Shown here piece by piece: positions 49,105 to 57,516 of a DNA stretch of 64,000 bases. The DNA is from Chthonomonas sp. GTDB taxonomy: Bacteria > Armatimonadota > Fimbriimonadia > Fimbriimonadales > Fimbriimonadaceae. The notes under the pieces were generated by a model. That model did not search any database. It worked only from the letters and a program-made list of their open reading frames with translations, and was not told where the DNA came from. A program made the translations under genes and the position numbers. The DNA lies in NCBI GenBank assembly GCA_016788115.1, contig JAEURR010000005.1, forward strand, positions 124,001 to 188,000, given 5' to 3'. Every line of letters starts with the position of its first letter. Within the stretch, counting starts at the first letter, position 1.

Positions 49105-50304
49105 CTAGTGTTTGATCCGTTTCCAGTACGCTTCGAACTCGAAGTTAGGACTGTGCGGGGGAGTGTGGCAATTTGCGCAACTCTTGGACCCAACTTTGGG
49201 CATGGGTGAGCGTTTGGGGCTCTTCACGTGGGCCTTTCCCGCGCCGTGGCAACTCTCGCATCCGACGTCGGTCATATTAGGCGTTTTCTTGCGTGATTGG
49301 AATCCGTCTTTTGCGGTCAACCCCACGACGTGGCAGCCGACGCAATCCGGATCGCGGTCCTGGTTGACCGCCTCCAGCGTCTTCAACGCTTGTGCATGCT
49401 TAGAGTGCTGCCAGACGCTCTTGGCCGGGGAATGGCAACTCTGACACGTGCGATTTCCCACGTAACCTGCTGAGCCGCTGCGGGGAATCGCATCCAACAA
49501 CCCTTCGGTTGTGACGCGCTTTAGGTACCGCTGGAAGACCTGAGTTACCGCGGCATCGTCCGCCACGTCCGGCCCGAGCGACACCGCAGTCGCGCTCAGA
49601 TACCGATTGCCGCGCATCCGTACGACCAAAACACTTCGGCCCTGGCTGCCCGGAGAGACGTACGCCGTGCCGTCTTGGATCACGGTCGCGGGCGGAGTCG
49701 AGCCATCGGTCTCATAAACCACGAGCGCTGCCTTAACGTCCTCATTGCGAGCCTTCGCCGCCTCAAGCGAACCTTCAAACAGGACCACTTGCCGCGGATG
49801 CGAGTCCAGCGCAAGTCCGGGACCCGCGCCCAAACGCGTGCGGAGCGAGCCCGCGCGGTCACCGAGCGCAAGGATCTGCCACCCGGCGGCCTCGGCAGAT
49901 GGATTCGCAAGTGACGCCTCGTCGATCTCCGACTGAATCAATAATCCGGTTCGAGTCTGGGCGCCACGCCAGTAGGCCGTTCCCAACACCGCGTCGCCGC
50001 TCCCGAGTGCCATTGCATCGGCACGAAGCTCTTTCATGACGTCGAGCACTGCGTCAACCTTGAGTTCGCTCTGGCGTCCTGCCTCGACCACGCTGTTCGC
50101 GCTGCACAGGAGCACCGTGCTCTCCTGGCGCAAATCCCGCACAACCGTTGCCAAGCGGCGAATGCCCCCCGACATCGGCTTGGTGCATCCACACGGCGAG
50201 AGGTAGCCGCGAAAGTTGCCCGTGATCAGGAATGTCGTCTCAGGATCGCTCGGCGCTAGCAAGCTCGCCAGCACCGCGCATCCTGCGACGATCAGCCCCC
50301 TCAT
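49105..50304 (-). CDS. Exported tetraheme cytochrome c with UshA-like N-terminus
   Basis: A 399-aa exported protein. The N-terminal part (about 20-280) begins with a signal-like helix and then TFLITGNFRGYLSPCGCTKPMSGGIRRLATVV, which resembles metallophosphatase/5'-nucleotidase-type proteins with a conserved C-G-C. The C-terminal part (about 285-399) resembles cytochrome c554 and has four CxxCH heme sites: CQSCH, CVGCH, CESCH and CANCH. It should transfer electrons in the periplasm. The ATG at 50304 lies one base after the stop of the DUF1573 gene, so the two genes are translationally coupled. The N-terminal activity is unknown, as metal ligands are not obvious. Confidence 0.88.
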   Translation of the reverse strand: MRGLIVAGCAVLASLLAPSDPETTFLITGNFRGYLSPCGCTKPMSGGIRRLATVVRDLRQESTVLLCSANSVVEAGRQSELKVDAVLDVMKELRADAMALGSGDAVLGTAYWRGAQTRTGLLIQSEIDEASLANPSAEAAGWQILALGDRAGSLRTRLGAGPGLALDSHPRQVVLFEGSLEAAKARNEDVKAALVVYETDGSTPPATVIQDGTAYVSPGSQGRSVLVVRMRGNRYLSATAVSLGPDVADDAAVTQVFQRYLKRVTTEGLLDAIPRSGSAGYVGNRTCQSCHSPAKSVWQHSKHAQALKTLEAVNQDRDPDCVGCHVVGLTAKDGFQSRKKTPNMTDVGCESCHGAGKAHVKSPKRSPMPKVGSKSCANCHTPPHSPNFEFEAYWKRIKH

Positions 50305-50305
50305 C

Positions 50306-51925
50306 TCACTTAACCACGCCGAGCACGGGCACCGTGATCTGCGGCTGCTTGGGGTCATTGGTCGCGATCTTCACCCACCCGTCAAAGTCGCCCACCGGGG
50401 CTCCGCCGACGTACCGTAGCGTTACGAAGAACTCGTCCCCTGCTCGCTGCTTCACGAACGATGCTTTCAAAAACGGGTGGCTCGTCTGGACGGCGGTGAT
50501 CTTGAACGGCTTTCCCGGACGATTGAAGGTGACCGTCGTGCTCACTCCCGTCGCCACCATGTCCCCTAGGTAGGCCGCAGACGGAAACGCTGCGATGCCT
50601 CGTTGCACTTCGAACGGGCCGATGAGCGTCGGCCAATCCGGATCGTTCGTTTCAACCAAAAGATTAACCAGCGCGCGACCAGTCGGGATGTTGGGGCTCA
50701 GGAGTACCTTGATGTGGTAGCCAGCGCGCACTTTCGAGCCTTCACCCATCTCGGGGTCGGCCAGTTTCCCTCCCCAAGGCTCGACATCCGCCATGCCGAC
50801 GACTCCCGCAACGGTGGCGGACTTGATCTCGAACTTCGGATCGTCCACGAACAGATAGTAGTCCACGACCAAGCCGTTCTCCTCAGCGATGAACACTCGC
50901 TTCGACTCGGGCCGCATCAGCCGGTACTTGGGTTGGATCATGACCTTGAACGGGACCTTGATCACGCTACGCTCGGGGTCGCTCGTGTAAAAGTAAATCG
51001 CTTTGTCCTGAGGTCCGATAAAGTCACGCGTGCTCATGGTGACGGTGACTAGTCCGGTACTCCCCGCGGCGATCGTCTGAGGGTTCTTGATCGCGAAGCA
51101 TCCGCAGTCGGGGACGAGCGTCAGGTTCAAATCGGCGTTGCCCGTGTTGGTGACCGTCAGCGTTGCAGTCGGACGATCGCCTTGCTTGACATACCCAAGG
51201 TCGACCACACGTGGTTCAAGCACAGCGGTCGGAACCGCTGGCGTCAGTCGCTCACGCAGTCGAACTGACTTCTGTAGATCGTCAACCGCCTTGAAAATCG
51301 CGGTCGTCGCGCTCGTGTTCAGGTTCAGAATCTTATGCTCCATGGCATACAACCCTTCGCCGCGGTCCATGCACGAATTCGTCTTGTAGGTGCGCTCAAG
51401 CCCCAAGTACCGCCCGATTGAGTACGTCACCTCGTTCCGGATTTCGGTCTTCGTGATCGGTACCTGACTGCCGCCGCGACGAAGCGCAAGGACGACCTCC
51501 AATCGTGGATCGGTCGGTGCGTCCGAATCGAAGAACACCGCGCCTGCGGGCCCTGCTGAATCCGCATTCGGTGGCAGTGTCGGTTGAAACGAGAATGCCA
51601 CGTCCGCACGTTGATTCAGGAAGATCACTTCGAGTCCGGGGACGTAACGTTTCCACTCCGAGATCGCCGCATCACGGGCAGTGCGGAACTCAACTTGGTC
51701 TTGAGCGCGAACGTCCTTGTCCTCCCAGTGCATCGAGAACTGCTTCTTCGGGAGTTTCAAAGCGAGCTTGCTCGCGGCGTCGAAGTCGCCTGCCTCCAGG
51801 TGGCGCTGTACTCCCAGAAACGTCGCCGCAAAGGCTGCGTGAGCACCGGGCGGGACCGACGGTCCTACTTTGAGTGAAGTTTGCGCACTAAGGATCGCAA
51901 TTCCGAACAGAACCGTGCCGAACAT
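50306..51925 (-). CDS. Exported DUF1573 protein with dead matrixin-like domain
   Basis: A 539-aa exported protein with a short signal peptide (MFGTVLFGIAILSAQTS). The N-terminal half resembles a zinc metallopeptidase of the matrixin type: ISEWKRYVPGLEVIFLNQRADVAFSF, then YSIGRYLGLERTYKTNSCM in the place of HExGHxLGLxHS...SxM. All three zinc histidines and the catalytic Glu are missing, so it is a pseudo-protease. The C-terminal half begins with a DUF1573 domain (PRVVDLGYVKQGDRPTATLTVTNTGNADLNLTLVPDCGCF), an Ig-like fold with the conserved C-G-C, followed by more Ig-like strands. It precedes and is coupled to the tetraheme cytochrome gene. Confidence 0.82.
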   Translation of the reverse strand: MFGTVLFGIAILSAQTSLKVGPSVPPGAHAAFAATFLGVQRHLEAGDFDAASKLALKLPKKQFSMHWEDKDVRAQDQVEFRTARDAAISEWKRYVPGLEVIFLNQRADVAFSFQPTLPPNADSAGPAGAVFFDSDAPTDPRLEVVLALRRGGSQVPITKTEIRNEVTYSIGRYLGLERTYKTNSCMDRGEGLYAMEHKILNLNTSATTAIFKAVDDLQKSVRLRERLTPAVPTAVLEPRVVDLGYVKQGDRPTATLTVTNTGNADLNLTLVPDCGCFAIKNPQTIAAGSTGLVTVTMSTRDFIGPQDKAIYFYTSDPERSVIKVPFKVMIQPKYRLMRPESKRVFIAEENGLVVDYYLFVDDPKFEIKSATVAGVVGMADVEPWGGKLADPEMGEGSKVRAGYHIKVLLSPNIPTGRALVNLLVETNDPDWPTLIGPFEVQRGIAAFPSAAYLGDMVATGVSTTVTFNRPGKPFKITAVQTSHPFLKASFVKQRAGDEFFVTLRYVGGAPVGDFDGWVKIATNDPKQPQITVPVLGVVK

Positions 51926-52007: not shown

Positions 52008-52013
52008 TATAAT
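52008..52013 (+). promoter_or_regulatory. Consensus TATAAT for the leader-secA operon
   Basis: TATAAT lies 19 nt before the ATG at 52033, giving a leader of about 13 nt. No obvious second promoter lies between the small gene and secA, so the two should be co-transcribed. Confidence 0.5.
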
Positions 52014-52032: not shown

Positions 52033-52392
52033 ATGCTGAACTTCCTGCCCGCGCTCCTGATTCTCTTGATGCACGGCTCATTCGGAGCCGAGCAGCAGAA
52101 TCGTGCGTCGCAGTGGTTAGTCGCACCCCATGCGATGTCGGTCCAGAGCCTCGAAGCTCTGGCCCATGCGCAGGTCCAAGCTGGCTCGCCCGAGCTCGGC
52201 TCGTACTCGCAGCGCTCCTTCGTCCGACTGGTCGTCGCTTACTACCTGCAACCGACCGAGACGCCGCTGCTGGATGCGGAGGAAGTCGTAACCAAGCGCA
52301 CTCCGCCGCCCGTCGCATCCAACGATGTCCCGCCGCCCGATCTACGCTCGGTCGCCTCTTCGTTGATCGTGCGCGCTGGCCCCCTGGCCTAA
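52033..52392 (+). CDS. SecM-like secreted leader with C-terminal RAGP arrest motif
   Basis: A 119-aa protein. Residues 1-19 form a signal peptide (LNFLPALLILLMHGSFGA). The mature part has no known domain. It ends SSLIVRAGPLA, so R114-A-G-P117 lies two residues before the stop. E. coli SecM (170 aa, secreted, encoded just before secA) stalls ribosomes with G-I-R-A-G-P near its end and so raises secA expression when export is slow. The W-I of the SecM motif is absent. Position, export signal and RAGP together make an arrest peptide the best explanation. Known related arrest cores are RAPP and RAPG (ApdP, ApdA). The function is inferred and not proven. Confidence 0.75.
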   Translation: MLNFLPALLILLMHGSFGAEQQNRASQWLVAPHAMSVQSLEALAHAQVQAGSPELGSYSQRSFVRLVVAYYLQPTETPLLDAEEVVTKRTPPPVASNDVPPPDLRSVASSLIVRAGPLA

Positions 52393-52449
52393 GCCCCAGT
52401 TTCTCTCGACTGCTCCGCACGGTCAGACCTCTTTGTAGGTCAAGCGTGC
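52365..52449 (+). promoter_or_regulatory. Alternative RNA helices at the leader-secA junction
   Basis: GATCGTGCG (52365-52373, the I-V-R codons before A-G-P) can pair with CGCACGGTC (52416-52424) in 9 bp with one G-U. Alternatively GCACG (52417-52421) pairs with CGTGC (52445-52449), around the small hairpin GACCT/AGGTC (52426-52441). The second fold hides AGGTC and a GTG in frame with secA. The two outer folds exclude each other. Confidence 0.5.
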
Positions 52450-52472
52450 CCCTTTCTCCCACCGAAATTCCT

Positions 52473-55400
52473 ATGTTACAGACCTTACTCCGAAAGTTTT
52501 TTGACACCAGCGACAAGGACGTCAAGATGATCCTTCCTACGATCGAGCGAATCAACGATCTGGAAGAATCGATCGTTACGATGAGCGAAGATGAACTCAA
52601 AGGCAAGCCCGCGCTTTGGCGCAGCCGCCTCGCCGAAGGTTCGACGATCGACCAACTCCTGCCCGAAGTTTTCGCGGTCGTGCGCGAAGTCAGCAAGCGC
52701 CTGCTGAAAATGCGCCAGTTCGACGTCCAGCTGATCGGCGGCGTCGTCCTGCACCAGGGCCGCATCGCCGAGATGAAGACCGGTGAAGGTAAGACCTTGG
52801 TCGCCGTCTGCCCGATGGTCCTGAACGCTCTTACCGGCCGCGGCGCACACCTCGTCACCGTCAACGACTACCTGGCTCGACGCGACGCGGTTTGGATGGG
52901 TCCGGTCTATCACTTCCTCGGGCTGAGCATCGGCGTCATCCAGGGCCAGTCGGTAGATAACGATGAGCTCGGCGGTTCGTACATCTATGACCCCGGCTTC
53001 GAGCACGAAGATCCACGCTATGCCAGTCTGCGACCCGCGACGCGACGCGAAGCGTATCTCTGCGACATCGTCTACGGCACGAACCACGAGTTCGGGTTCG
53101 ACTACCTCCGCGACAACATGGCGTTCGAGAAGGAGCAGCTTGTGATGAGCGAACTCCACTTCGCCATCGTTGACGAAGTTGACTCGATCCTCATCGATGA
53201 AGCGCGCACCCCGCACATCATCTCCGGCCCCTCGGCCGACGATGTCTCGCACTACCGCATCGTCGACGCAGTCGTGCGCCGCATGGAGCCCGAGACCCAC
53301 TACACCTCGGACAAGAAGAACCATTCGGCGAGCTTGACTGAAGAGGGGATGGACTTCGCCGAAGAGCAGTTGGGTATCCCCAACATCGCGCTCGACCCCA
53401 AGGTCTTCCACCACTTGAATGCGTCGGTCAAGGCGTATGCCCTTTTTGATAAGGACGTGGACTACGTCGTCCGCCAGGGCGAGGTCGTCATCGTCGACGA
53501 GAACACAGGCCGCATGATGTTCGGCCGCCGATTCTCGGATGGCTTGCACCAGGCGCTTGAAGCCAAAGAAGGGGTCCAAGTCCAACGCGAGAGCCAAACG
53601 GTCGCCGTCATCACGTTCCAGAATCTGTTCCGCTTGTACGAGAAGCTCGCCGGCATGACCGGCACGGCCAAGACCGAAGAGGACGAGTTCCGCAAGATCT
53701 ACGGTCTGGACGTGGTGAGCATCCCCACGAACCGCCCGATGACGCGTGTGGACCAGGACGACATCGTTTACAAAACGGCCGAGGGCAAGTGGCGCGGCAT
53801 CGCCCGCGAACTCCTCCGCGCGCATTCGCACCTGCAGCCGGTCCTCGTCGGTACGCGCTCCATCGAGATGTCCGAAGTCGTTTCGGAGCGGCTCAGCTCG
53901 GAAGCACTGCAAAAGCTCATACTCATGGACCGCCTCTACGATGCCCGCGAGAACCGAAAGGACCTCACGAAGGAAACGCGTCGCAGTATCAACTCGGTGA
54001 TGGACCTCTCGCTCATCGACACCAAGCTGGAAACGCTGAAGACCTTGGCCCAAGAGATCGGCATCGCCCGGGATCCGCTCGCCGCCGAGCACCGCGACTG
54101 GTTCTTCGCCAAGAACGGGATCAGCGCCGATTGCGCGGAGACGTTCGAGGATTGCTTGCAGCACGGCATCCCACACAACGTCCTCAACGCGAAATACCAC
54201 GAGCGAGAGGCGCTCATCATCAGCGAAGCCGGTCGCAAGGGCGCGGTGACCATCGCGACCAACATGGCTGGACGCGGTGTGGACATTCTGCTCGGCGGAC
54301 GCATCGCCGACCAGATCATCCAGCAGGCACGCGACGCCGACGATGAGGCCGGTGTCGACGCCTTCAAGCATGAGTACGAAGAGACCATGGCCGGGTTCCG
54401 CCGCGGTGGCAAGCAACGCGCTGCTCCCCCGCTGCCCGTCGACGACGCCGAGCGCCGCGGGCTCGCGGAAGAGGTTCGCGCGCTTGGAGGACTGTACATT
54501 CTCGGTACCGAACGCCACGAGAGTCGCCGCATCGACAACCAGTTGCGAGGCCGCGCGGGGCGCCAAGGCGACCCTGGCGAGTCGCGGTTCTTTGTGAGCC
54601 TGGAGGACACGCTCTGGAAGATCTTCAACGCGAAGATGCTCGAGAACCCAATGCTGAAGACCTGGCCCTCGATGGAAGAAGTCAAGGCTGGATTCCTCAG
54701 CAAGATGATCCTCAAAACGCAGGAGCGGATTGAGAATCACTTCTTCGAGGCGCGTAAAAACGTTCTTGAGTACGACGACGTTTTGAACTCGCAGCGCGAG
54801 CACGTTTACGGCATGCGCCGCGAAGTCCTGCTGGGCAAGGACGTGACCGACGACATCCTGAAGGGTATCGACGAGGTCATCGAAGACGAAGTAAGCCAGT
54901 CGTGGGTCCTTGACGACGATGGGCATCAGGTTCTCGACATCGACGGACTCTACGATCGCATCAACACGATCTTCCCGCTCGTCGACTACGCCACACTCGA
55001 AGAGGTACGCACCGTGGAGGGACCGGCCCTGGTCGGGTTCCTACAGGAGAAGGCGCACGAGGCCTACCAAACCAAGCGCTCCGCCGTCGGCGACGAAATG
55101 ATGGAGATGCTCGAACAGAAGGTCATGCTCCAGTCAGTCAACGACAACTGGATGGAGCACCTGCAGATCATCGACTACATCCGTGAAGGCATCAGCCTGC
55201 GCGCTTATGGTCAGGTTGACCCTTTGATCGCTTACAAGCGAGAAACGTACGACCTCTTCCAGGCGACTGAACGCAAGACCCGCGACCAGATGGTCAGACT
55301 CGTCTTCCGCGCGAATATCCAGGTCCAGTCTCCCGAGGAGAGCTACGAGTCGGAGGCTGCGCCTGCCATGGCCGCGACTGCCGAACCCACTGGCACACCG

Positions 55401-55523
55401 GGCACTTGGCCGGACAACATCGATCCGAAGTTCATCGGTCGAAACGACCCCTGTCCCTGTGGCAGCGGCTTGAAATTCAAGAACTGTCACTACGGCAAGT
55501 TCCGCGAAACTGGCACGATCTAA
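52473..55523 (+). CDS. secA: Preprotein translocase ATPase SecA
   Basis: Drives post-translational export through SecYEG. The 1016-aa protein is longer than E. coli SecA (901). Start at ATG 52473 (MLQTLLRKFF aligns with the canonical N-terminus); an in-frame GTG at 52446 is possible. Walker A is MKTGEGKT (about 101-108), and DEAD-box motif II lies in VDEVDSILIDEA. The C-terminal zinc motif is CPCGSGLKFKNCH. Insertions relative to typical SecA: about 25 residues after SIGVIQGQ (ELGGSYIYDPGFEHED), and about 70 residues before HGIPHNVLNAKYHERE. No Shine-Dalgarno precedes the ATG. It follows the SecM-like gene by 80 nt and ends at a strong terminator. Confidence 0.97.
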   Translation: MLQTLLRKFFDTSDKDVKMILPTIERINDLEESIVTMSEDELKGKPALWRSRLAEGSTIDQLLPEVFAVVREVSKRLLKMRQFDVQLIGGVVLHQGRIAEMKTGEGKTLVAVCPMVLNALTGRGAHLVTVNDYLARRDAVWMGPVYHFLGLSIGVIQGQSVDNDELGGSYIYDPGFEHEDPRYASLRPATRREAYLCDIVYGTNHEFGFDYLRDNMAFEKEQLVMSELHFAIVDEVDSILIDEARTPHIISGPSADDVSHYRIVDAVVRRMEPETHYTSDKKNHSASLTEEGMDFAEEQLGIPNIALDPKVFHHLNASVKAYALFDKDVDYVVRQGEVVIVDENTGRMMFGRRFSDGLHQALEAKEGVQVQRESQTVAVITFQNLFRLYEKLAGMTGTAKTEEDEFRKIYGLDVVSIPTNRPMTRVDQDDIVYKTAEGKWRGIARELLRAHSHLQPVLVGTRSIEMSEVVSERLSSEALQKLILMDRLYDARENRKDLTKETRRSINSVMDLSLIDTKLETLKTLAQEIGIARDPLAAEHRDWFFAKNGISADCAETFEDCLQHGIPHNVLNAKYHEREALIISEAGRKGAVTIATNMAGRGVDILLGGRIADQIIQQARDADDEAGVDAFKHEYEETMAGFRRGGKQRAAPPLPVDDAERRGLAEEVRALGGLYILGTERHESRRIDNQLRGRAGRQGDPGESRFFVSLEDTLWKIFNAKMLENPMLKTWPSMEEVKAGFLSKMILKTQERIENHFFEARKNVLEYDDVLNSQREHVYGMRREVLLGKDVTDDILKGIDEVIEDEVSQSWVLDDDGHQVLDIDGLYDRINTIFPLVDYATLEEVRTVEGPALVGFLQEKAHEAYQTKRSAVGDEMMEMLEQKVMLQSVNDNWMEHLQIIDYIREGISLRAYGQVDPLIAYKRETYDLFQATERKTRDQMVRLVFRANIQVQSPEESYESEAAPAMAATAEPTGTPGTWPDNIDPKFIGRNDPCPCGSGLKFKNCHYGKFRETGTI

Positions 55524-55575: not shown

Positions 55576-57450
55576 TTACTTGGGGCCCACGAACGGTCCG
55601 ATCCAGTCGCTCACGAGCGAAGTGGGCCTTCGATCGCTGAGGAGCGGATCGACGACCCCAAGTCCTGGCAGCAACGCATCAAACAGATACCGGGACTCTG
55701 CGCCTGCTCGGTCGCGGTAGACGTTGATCGTACTTCGGCTGAGCAACTGCGTCAGGTCGGATCGAAACACAATGTGCCGAGCCGCCCCGCGATTGGGGCT
55801 TAGTGGAATGGACGCCATGCTCGCGGAGCGCAGGTCAGCAGCGAAGGTCTGGAGCGTGGACGGCGGGATCTGCGCGCTGGCCATCGTGAGCGAACTCCCG
55901 GGCGGCAGAGCCTCAATCTTCGCGCGGAGGTCCGCCGGGAGCGCGGCGAGGAACCTGAGAATGACGGTCGCCCGAGGGAGATTGCCCATGCCAGCGGACG
56001 GCTTCGCCCTCCCAAAGGATTGGACCTTTGCGATGCTCAACCCCTTGGCCCAGTTCATCGCTTCCTGCAGCGTCATCGGCTTCTTCGCTTGGGTGAGCCA
56101 CTCGGATGCGCCCGCAAACTCGTACCGACGATCCAGAAACGCCCACACATTACGGACGACCCAAACCCCGTCGATCTTCTCGTACACTGCCCAGGGGATG
56201 TTTGCAACCGCCGTGTCTGGCTCGACTGACCCACCCAGCATCGCCACCGATTGCGCTTTCCACCCGGTTTGCCCGATCGCCGGTGCCAGCTTTGCGAGCT
56301 CCGCTTCTGGCCCGGCGGGTGCCGCAAGATCGCGGACTGGGCTGACCTCCATGACCACTTCACTGCCCGATTGTTGAGCAAGCGCCACTAGCAGGAATGC
56401 GACCGACTTGGGGTTTACCCCTGCCTTGAACTTAGCAGGGCAGCTTTTTGGTTGGCCGGTTACCCAGCGGTCCCACCGTTCAGCGAATCCAGCACCTTCG
56501 TAGATCATCTCCAGCCACTTCTCGTCGCTGGGCATGCTGAGGCCCGGCACCAAGTCTGCAGCGTACCATTCGACGGTCGTCGTGCCGTCCATGGCATGCA
56601 CGGAGTACTCGTAGTAAACAGAAAGGTCGAGCGGATCAAGATGGATGCGGTGCGTGACCGTCGTTGAACGCGCCCGGCGGTCCAATCGTGCGCGCTGCTC
56701 CTCCGGGCTCTGCTTGGAGGCCTTCAATTCGGTCTCGTAGGAGCGAATGTGAGCCGTGGCGTACCAGTTCACCCATGCGGGCCACCGAGTGTTGTCGCGC
56801 CACCAGTAGGCGTCGCCAGTGATGATGGGATCCTCATTCAGCAGTCTTGCGGACTCTGTGGCCCGCAGCGTGTAGAACAGCGGTCCACTCATGGGCATCT
56901 CGGCAAGGTCGCTACTGAGCAGGCCGCGCGCGACTGCCAGCCCGGCCCTTTCTTCCCAGGGCAGATCGACCTTCCAAAGGCCGTTGGTCCACCACCGATT
57001 CAATTGACTTTCCGGCGAAGCCTTCGGCTTGCCGCTTGCCGCTTCAAGGGCCCGCGTGATCGGCTCCAGATTTGGCGGGACTGTCAGGTTGTTCGTGAAT
57101 GGTGCGGCCACCCGAAAGACCTTTGACCACGTGGAGTTCACCGTCGTCGTCAACTCGCGGTAGAGCGCAGAGTCGCGGGCCTTCGCCTCGGGCGCGGCGA
57201 CTACGTTGAAACCGCTCCCCGCGGGCTCAAACCTCACATCGAGCGCCTGCGACAGGATCTCAATGGTCTTGTCGAGCGCTCGTTCGTGAAGTGCCACGGC
57301 AACGACCCGATTCTTCAGCGGAGCTGAACAAGTGAACACTTGGTCGCGCGTAGAGAGTAGCGCACATAGCTCAGGGAGGGTCACCACTTGCGGTTCAACC
57401 CGCCATGCGACCGGCACCAGAAGCCCCGCCAACGCACCCCAAACAGACAT
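55576..57450 (-). CDS. Exported protein with STN-like N-terminal domain
   Basis: A 624-aa exported protein (626 with the GTG at 57456). A signal-like helix (SVWGALAGLLVPVAW) precedes a domain that resembles the secretin/TonB short N-terminal (STN) fold: VTLPELCALLSTR, RVVAVALHERALDKTIEILSQALDVRFEPAGSGFNVVA. The remaining 500 residues are unrecognised, with scattered tryptophans (ITGDAYWWRDNTRWPAWVNWY) and a mixed fold. No outer-membrane barrel or secretin domain is evident, so it is not a receptor or secretin itself. It stands alone: it converges with secA and diverges from the GYF_2 gene. Function is unknown. Confidence 0.7.
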   Translation of the reverse strand: MSVWGALAGLLVPVAWRVEPQVVTLPELCALLSTRDQVFTCSAPLKNRVVAVALHERALDKTIEILSQALDVRFEPAGSGFNVVAAPEAKARDSALYRELTTTVNSTWSKVFRVAAPFTNNLTVPPNLEPITRALEAASGKPKASPESQLNRWWTNGLWKVDLPWEERAGLAVARGLLSSDLAEMPMSGPLFYTLRATESARLLNEDPIITGDAYWWRDNTRWPAWVNWYATAHIRSYETELKASKQSPEEQRARLDRRARSTTVTHRIHLDPLDLSVYYEYSVHAMDGTTTVEWYAADLVPGLSMPSDEKWLEMIYEGAGFAERWDRWVTGQPKSCPAKFKAGVNPKSVAFLLVALAQQSGSEVVMEVSPVRDLAAPAGPEAELAKLAPAIGQTGWKAQSVAMLGGSVEPDTAVANIPWAVYEKIDGVWVVRNVWAFLDRRYEFAGASEWLTQAKKPMTLQEAMNWAKGLSIAKVQSFGRAKPSAGMGNLPRATVILRFLAALPADLRAKIEALPPGSSLTMASAQIPPSTLQTFAADLRSASMASIPLSPNRGAARHIVFRSDLTQLLSRSTINVYRDRAGAESRYLFDALLPGLGVVDPLLSDRRPTSLVSDWIGPFVGPK

Positions 57451-57516
57451 CGCCACTCACTGTTATGACGCGCATTGACCACTGTTGGTGCTTCAAAGGT
57501 GTATGATGCGCGATGA

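Follow-up and report, generated by a model that had tools for sequence, protein, structure and literature searches.

The uORF and secA in the window and in relatives

The window, i.e., the whole 64,000-nucleotide stretch of the Chthonomonas sp. contig analysed here, carries upstream of secA an open reading frame (uORF) without annotated function whose C-terminus holds an R-A-G-P motif (Table 1). Its N-terminal signal or transmembrane segment, MLNFLPALLILLMHGSFGA, was recognized by hydropathy only, and about 90 amino acids separate this segment from the arrest site (group membership calls for >30). The FxxxxWIxxxxGIRAGP sequence of E. coli SecM is absent from the uORF, which reads SLIVRAGP. The uORF almost certainly belongs to the uA_RQH_Fimbriimonadales group of arrest peptides as described in the main text of Fujiwara et al. 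2024 (PMC10987492), sharing with it the order, the position before secA, an N-terminal localization signal, and a C-terminal RAPP-like motif. It is probably a short secreted peptide that would stall its own ribosome in Chthonomonas sp.; the expected stall position is taken from the SecM and RAGP literature, as given in the same main text. A TATAAT at 52008–52013, 20 nt 5' of the uORF ATG, is a possible −10 element that would leave a very short leader; no −35 element to match it emerged from the promoter scan. Two divergent genes on the minus strand 5' of the uORF (49105–51925) encode a DUF1573/Ig-like protein and a cytochrome c554-type protein, and a 626-aa open frame without a Pfam match (55576–57456, minus strand) converges with secA.

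Table 1. Coordinates of the features around the uORF and the secA start, in window positions
Feature	Positions	Strand	Remarks
uORF (119 aa)	52033–52392	+	Hydrophobic N-terminus; C-terminus ...SLIVRAGPLA; almost certainly of the uA_RQH_Fimbriimonadales arrest-peptide group (PMC10987492)
R-A-G-P codons	52372–52383	+	Expected stall with Gly codon 52378–52380 in the P site
Arm A	52364–52373	+	5' arm of helix 1; within the expected stalled-ribosome footprint
Arm B	52416–52430	+	3' arm of helix 1 (52416–52425) or 5' arms of fold 2 (52417–52421, 52426–52430)
Arm C	52437–52449	+	Pairs with B as 3' arms of fold 2 or with D as 5' arms of the helix closing the secA start; includes GTG 52446, an unlikely start
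Arm D	52472–52485	+	secA start region; predicted, context-dependent pairs 52472–52477/52443–52448 and 52481–52485/52437–52441
secA	52473–55523	+	Most likely start ATG 52473; no Shine-Dalgarno sequence

The arrest motif is found throughout the sampled Fimbriimonadaceae, the family of Armatimonadota in which the named relatives place the window genome. Our locus set comprised 190 loci, most of them surrounding the secA gene of a relative, and the family counts refer to 75 distinct Fimbriimonadaceae loci with enough upstream sequence; one contig end of 328 bases (L158) was left out as too short to judge. Among these loci, which had been selected by the less strict pattern R[ADGS][GP]P, the uORF before secA ends in R-[D/A]-G-P in 75/75, with R and G-P invariably kept and the second place taken by D (61 loci) or A (14 loci). 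The motif mostly lies 2–3 codons from the uORF stop and 78–170 nt 5' of the secA ATG, the family consensus is G-F-x4-R-[S/T]-R-D-G-P, and 71 of the 75 uORFs have a hydrophobic N-terminus by hydropathy only. The motif is absent in all 19 loci examined from sister families of the order. According to the main text of PMC10987492, RDGP was among the query motifs, and a uA_RQH_Fimbriimonadales member caused efficient stalling in vitro (B. subtilis ribosomes) and in vivo (E. coli ribosomes). Several loci are unusual in other respects. In L013, the uORF runs 17 codons past RDGP instead of the usual 0–7, placing its stop well outside the footprint. Two small genomes of one genus (L055 and L168; about 1.5 Mb, g45) seemingly keep the motif as RAGP in divergent, more AT-rich surroundings. 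A contig labelled as a Methanoregulaceae archaeon (L034) is probably mis-binned; its secA locus is that of a Fimbriimonadaceae member and seems identical to L006.

The alignment of relatives points to ATG 52473, and not GTG 52446, as the most likely start of SecA. The position aligned with 52473 is ATG in 73 and GTG in 2 of the 75 relatives, and an in-frame stop lies within 27 nt upstream of the secA start in 21/75; GTG 52446 is therefore an unlikely start and was rejected as a candidate. The sequence-only reading had left room for this outcome, proposing control opposite to that in E. coli unless SecA starts at ATG 52473, and it is this exception that applies. Antisense to secA, an 813-codon open frame (52485–54926, minus strand) is probably a by-product of GC-rich codon use.

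No Shine-Dalgarno (SD) sequence precedes secA in the window, and SD sites are scarce before secA in the family as a whole. An SD-like tetramer occurs at 4/75 secA starts, below the random background of 14%, and pairing at −7 kcal/mol or better was found at 1/75 starts with the consensus antiSD, which was used because the window genome assembly (G000) gave no match to 16S rRNA of its own; the assembly is therefore probably incomplete there. In Fimbriimonadia, SD is used in about 25% of genes (PMC10783764).

Complementarity between the arrest codons and the secA start

Across the family, the codons at the stall site seem to have co-evolved with the bases in front of secA, although neither sequence is conserved. 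The arrest region of each genome was compared with its own secA start region and with the start regions of other genomes. Across 66 dereplicated genomes, own pairs were better than swapped pairs with a combined z of −8.7, a value that 0/20,000 permutations equalled; z was −6.5 under stricter dereplication (51 representatives) and −4.6 with GC-matched swaps, and the signal was gone when the start region was reversed or complemented. The main focus of the complementarity map lies at ATG −24 to −1 on the 3' side. Its partners on the 5' side are windows that run from the Pro codon to about +24 (starts 0 to +6; z to −7.2) and windows about −30 to −6 before the Pro codon (z to −5.6), and a stalled ribosome would be expected to cover part of either 5' arm. 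Representative helices are GATTCACGGT/ACTGTGAATC in L128, TTCGCTGGTT/AATCAGCGAG in L024, CGTCGGTCG/CGACCGACG in L062, and CGTTAAGCA/TGCTTAACG in L018. Taken singly, 17 of the 66 relatives reach p 0.05 against about 6 expected; the signal is therefore strong when summed over the family, and some members do not show it. At the level of the family, a SecM-type helix was thus found, in which the arrest region pairs with the secA start and the 5' arm lies under the stalled ribosome.

Folding of the family RNAs is consistent with such a helix. Their stability exceeds that of intergenic shuffles (mean z −1.55), and with the footprint masked the start region opens to a greater extent than it does in shuffled RNAs (p 0.001). 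Local intergenic hairpins over the secA start were considered as a family feature and rejected; they show no covariation with the start region, which tends to avoid local pairing. Since secA lacks an SD, the family helix would close a bare start region. A stalled ribosome would open it, and the expected outcome is therefore an E. coli-like derepression: judging by the co-evolved pairing, stalling most likely makes the secA start accessible, as it does with SecM.

Alternative helices in the window

The direct helix of the family is missing in the window (swapped p 0.29), where two other folds compete. Helix 1 pairs 52365–52373 (GATCGTGCG) with 52416–52424 (CGCACGGTC) over 9 bp including one G-U; it extends to 10 bp through U52364-A52425 (52364–52373/52416–52425), and to 11 with a terminal U-G. 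In fold 2, GCACG 52417–52421 pairs with CGTGC 52445–52449 around GACCT 52426–52430/AGGTC 52437–52441. Both structures had been proposed from the sequence, and both are present as described, mutually exclusive, with fold 2 covering AGGTC and GTG 52446 in frame with secA. The 5' arm had been assigned to the I-V-R codons, and here the pairing holds and the codon frame does not, as 52365 ends a Leu codon and I-V-R occupies 52366–52374. The fold is also stable against shuffled sequence, the comparison named in the sequence-only reading: the minimum free energy of 52360–52480 is −35.5 kcal/mol (z −2.9, 0/200 shuffles as stable), with helix 1 present. Masking the putative footprint, 52363–52395, yields exactly fold 2 at −17.3 kcal/mol, and the predicted RNA thus switches from helix 1 to fold 2, in line with the earlier suggestion that a stalled ribosome picks the fold. 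In isolation, the energies are −13.0 kcal/mol for helix 1 and −14.1 kcal/mol for fold 2. A third helix, between the RAGP codons (52372–52381) and 52438–52448, forms a good duplex and was rejected, as its 6-bp core has a probability of 0.00 in every ensemble. Rfam gave no match, and no intrinsic terminator was found in the uORF–secA gap; the sole terminator-like match (52338–52354) sits within the uORF.

Helix 1 is a genuine feature that, judged on the window sequence alone, exceeds chance modestly. Its length has p values of 0.0045 against intergenic shuffles, 0.046 against intergenic regions taken from other species, and 0.074 when the codons are resampled synonymously, and its duplex energy is unexceptional under the same three nulls (0.10, 0.45, and 0.41, respectively). 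Helix 1 and fold 2 are lineage-specific, as comparison with the relatives, the nearest of which are only 72% identical to the window in SecA, gave no counterpart of either at the same positions; the conservation by which the sequence-only reading had proposed to judge its helices is lacking.

The window may instead reach derepression through an erm-like chain of helices, A:B / B:C / C:D, whose last member is predicted to cover ATG 52473 (Table 1). As helix 1 sequesters B, C:D can close ATG 52473. This helix over the start is compatible with fold 1 and incompatible with fold 2, and the predicted direction in the window is therefore again derepression. In a 121 nt context, the unpaired probability of ATG 52473 rises from 0.06 in the free to 0.96 in the stalled state, and in longer contexts it goes from 0.69 to 0.70, 0.09 to 0.37, 0.04 to 0.13, 0.04 to 0.08, and 0.14 to 0.15. 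The mean over four contexts rises from 0.22 to 0.53 (+0.31), dominated by the shortest context and nearly vanishing in several longer ones; the mean opening in shuffles is 0.01, and 0.3% of them reach the observed value, a p value that is soft since the four shuffle-tested contexts were picked after six had been inspected. In the free state, 98.7% of shuffles leave the ATG more open than the window does. Mutually exclusive helices of the erm type, the last over the start codon, are thus predicted in the window, beyond shuffles on average and in a context-dependent manner, and derepression is the likely direction of control by these predictions, with the exact helices less settled.

These features also bear on an alternative that we consider unlikely, in which the arrest peptide of the window works and helix 1 and fold 2 are incidental, with secA controlled through another element or its control weakened in this lineage. 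The missing direct helix, the unconserved positions of helix 1 and fold 2, the context dependence of the prediction, and the p of 0.074 for helix 1 under synonymous codon resampling all fit this alternative. However, the mean opening of the ATG on stalling lies beyond 99.7% of shuffles, the uORF is kept by every relative, and the two congeners show a direct helix between codons before the motif and the start region (p 0.08 in L002 and 0.04 in L003).

Control of secA and comparison with known systems

We favour, with a probability of about two in three, a SecM-type secretion monitor in which an export-dependent stall at R-A-G-P refolds the mRNA and raises SecA. The uORF product would be a Sec substrate, and slow export would leave the ribosome stalled at R-A-G-P, where it would cover the arrest codons and free the secA start from the helices that close it, raising SecA synthesis. 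For most relatives, the closing helix would be the direct one between codons at or around R-D-G-P and the 24 nt before the secA ATG. In the window, A would pair with B in the unstalled state, so that C could pair with D across ATG 52473; upon stalling, B would pair with C in fold 2 and the ATG would be freed. Our results bear out that the motif and the complementarity extend through the family, that the ATG start is conserved and lacks an SD, and that both folds of the window can form; we infer the stalling at this locus, the footprint, the pairing of C with D in vivo, and the direction of control.

Two further explanations carry much less weight. The complementarity could slow the ribosome at the arrest site or shield the mRNA from cleavage without controlling initiation; a stem just 3' of the stall site could indeed add to pausing, and the 5' arm often starts right at the Pro codon, but we consider this improbable because the 3' arm stays at −24 to −1 of the ATG despite widely varying intergenic length, and initiation is what such stems affect in the precedents of SecM and Alteromonas. 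The opposite logic, with SecA starting at GTG 52446 and stall-formed fold 2 closing it, draws on the frame of this codon and its place in fold 2 and is the least credible, as the aligned starts and upstream stops of relatives speak against GTG 52446, this codon is closed in the free state as well (unpaired 0.11–0.22), and the family-wide helix implies derepression. Of the sequence-only reading, the arrest-peptide uORF whose stall would alter the fold before secA finds support; the inverse logic does not, and the helices that it named are not conserved in position.

The favoured mechanism resembles E. coli SecM–secA, where a secreted uORF also ends in R-A-G-P, its 3' part pairs with the secA start region, and the stall opens this pairing. 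In contrast, the Fimbriimonadaceae uORFs lack FxxxxWIxxxxGI before the motif, their secA has no SD to mask, and the window helices differ. Successive mutually exclusive helices are the logic of erm-type translational attenuators, which the predicted A:B, B:C, C:D chain of the window follows; here, however, the trigger would be slow secretion instead of an antibiotic, and the chain is predicted only and not conserved in relatives. In Alteromonas uDF_RQH_Enterobacterales–secDF2, arrest likewise opens a stem that masks a downstream start, as established with reporters and stem mutations, but the stem masks an SD and the target is secDF2 (PMC10987492, main text). In that main text, the RNA switch was tested only for Alteromonas secDF2, and stalling, with no RNA switch or secA control, is given for uA_RQH_Fimbriimonadales. 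The arrest peptide is thus already known, and the co-evolution of the RNA across the family and the SD-free target appear to be unpublished as far as that main text is concerned.

The complementarity result adds the RNA half to the published arrest-peptide group. For the window, the likely direction of control, which the sequence-only reading had left open, can now be given as derepression. More tentatively, the whole family may control secA by an SD-free stalled-ribosome switch whose helices have been rewired repeatedly with the logic kept, the direct helix having given way to an erm-like chain in the lineage of the window. At an SD-free secA start, control would consist solely in the opening of structure, and the uA_RQH_Fimbriimonadales group would offer a clean model for SD-free translational regulation.
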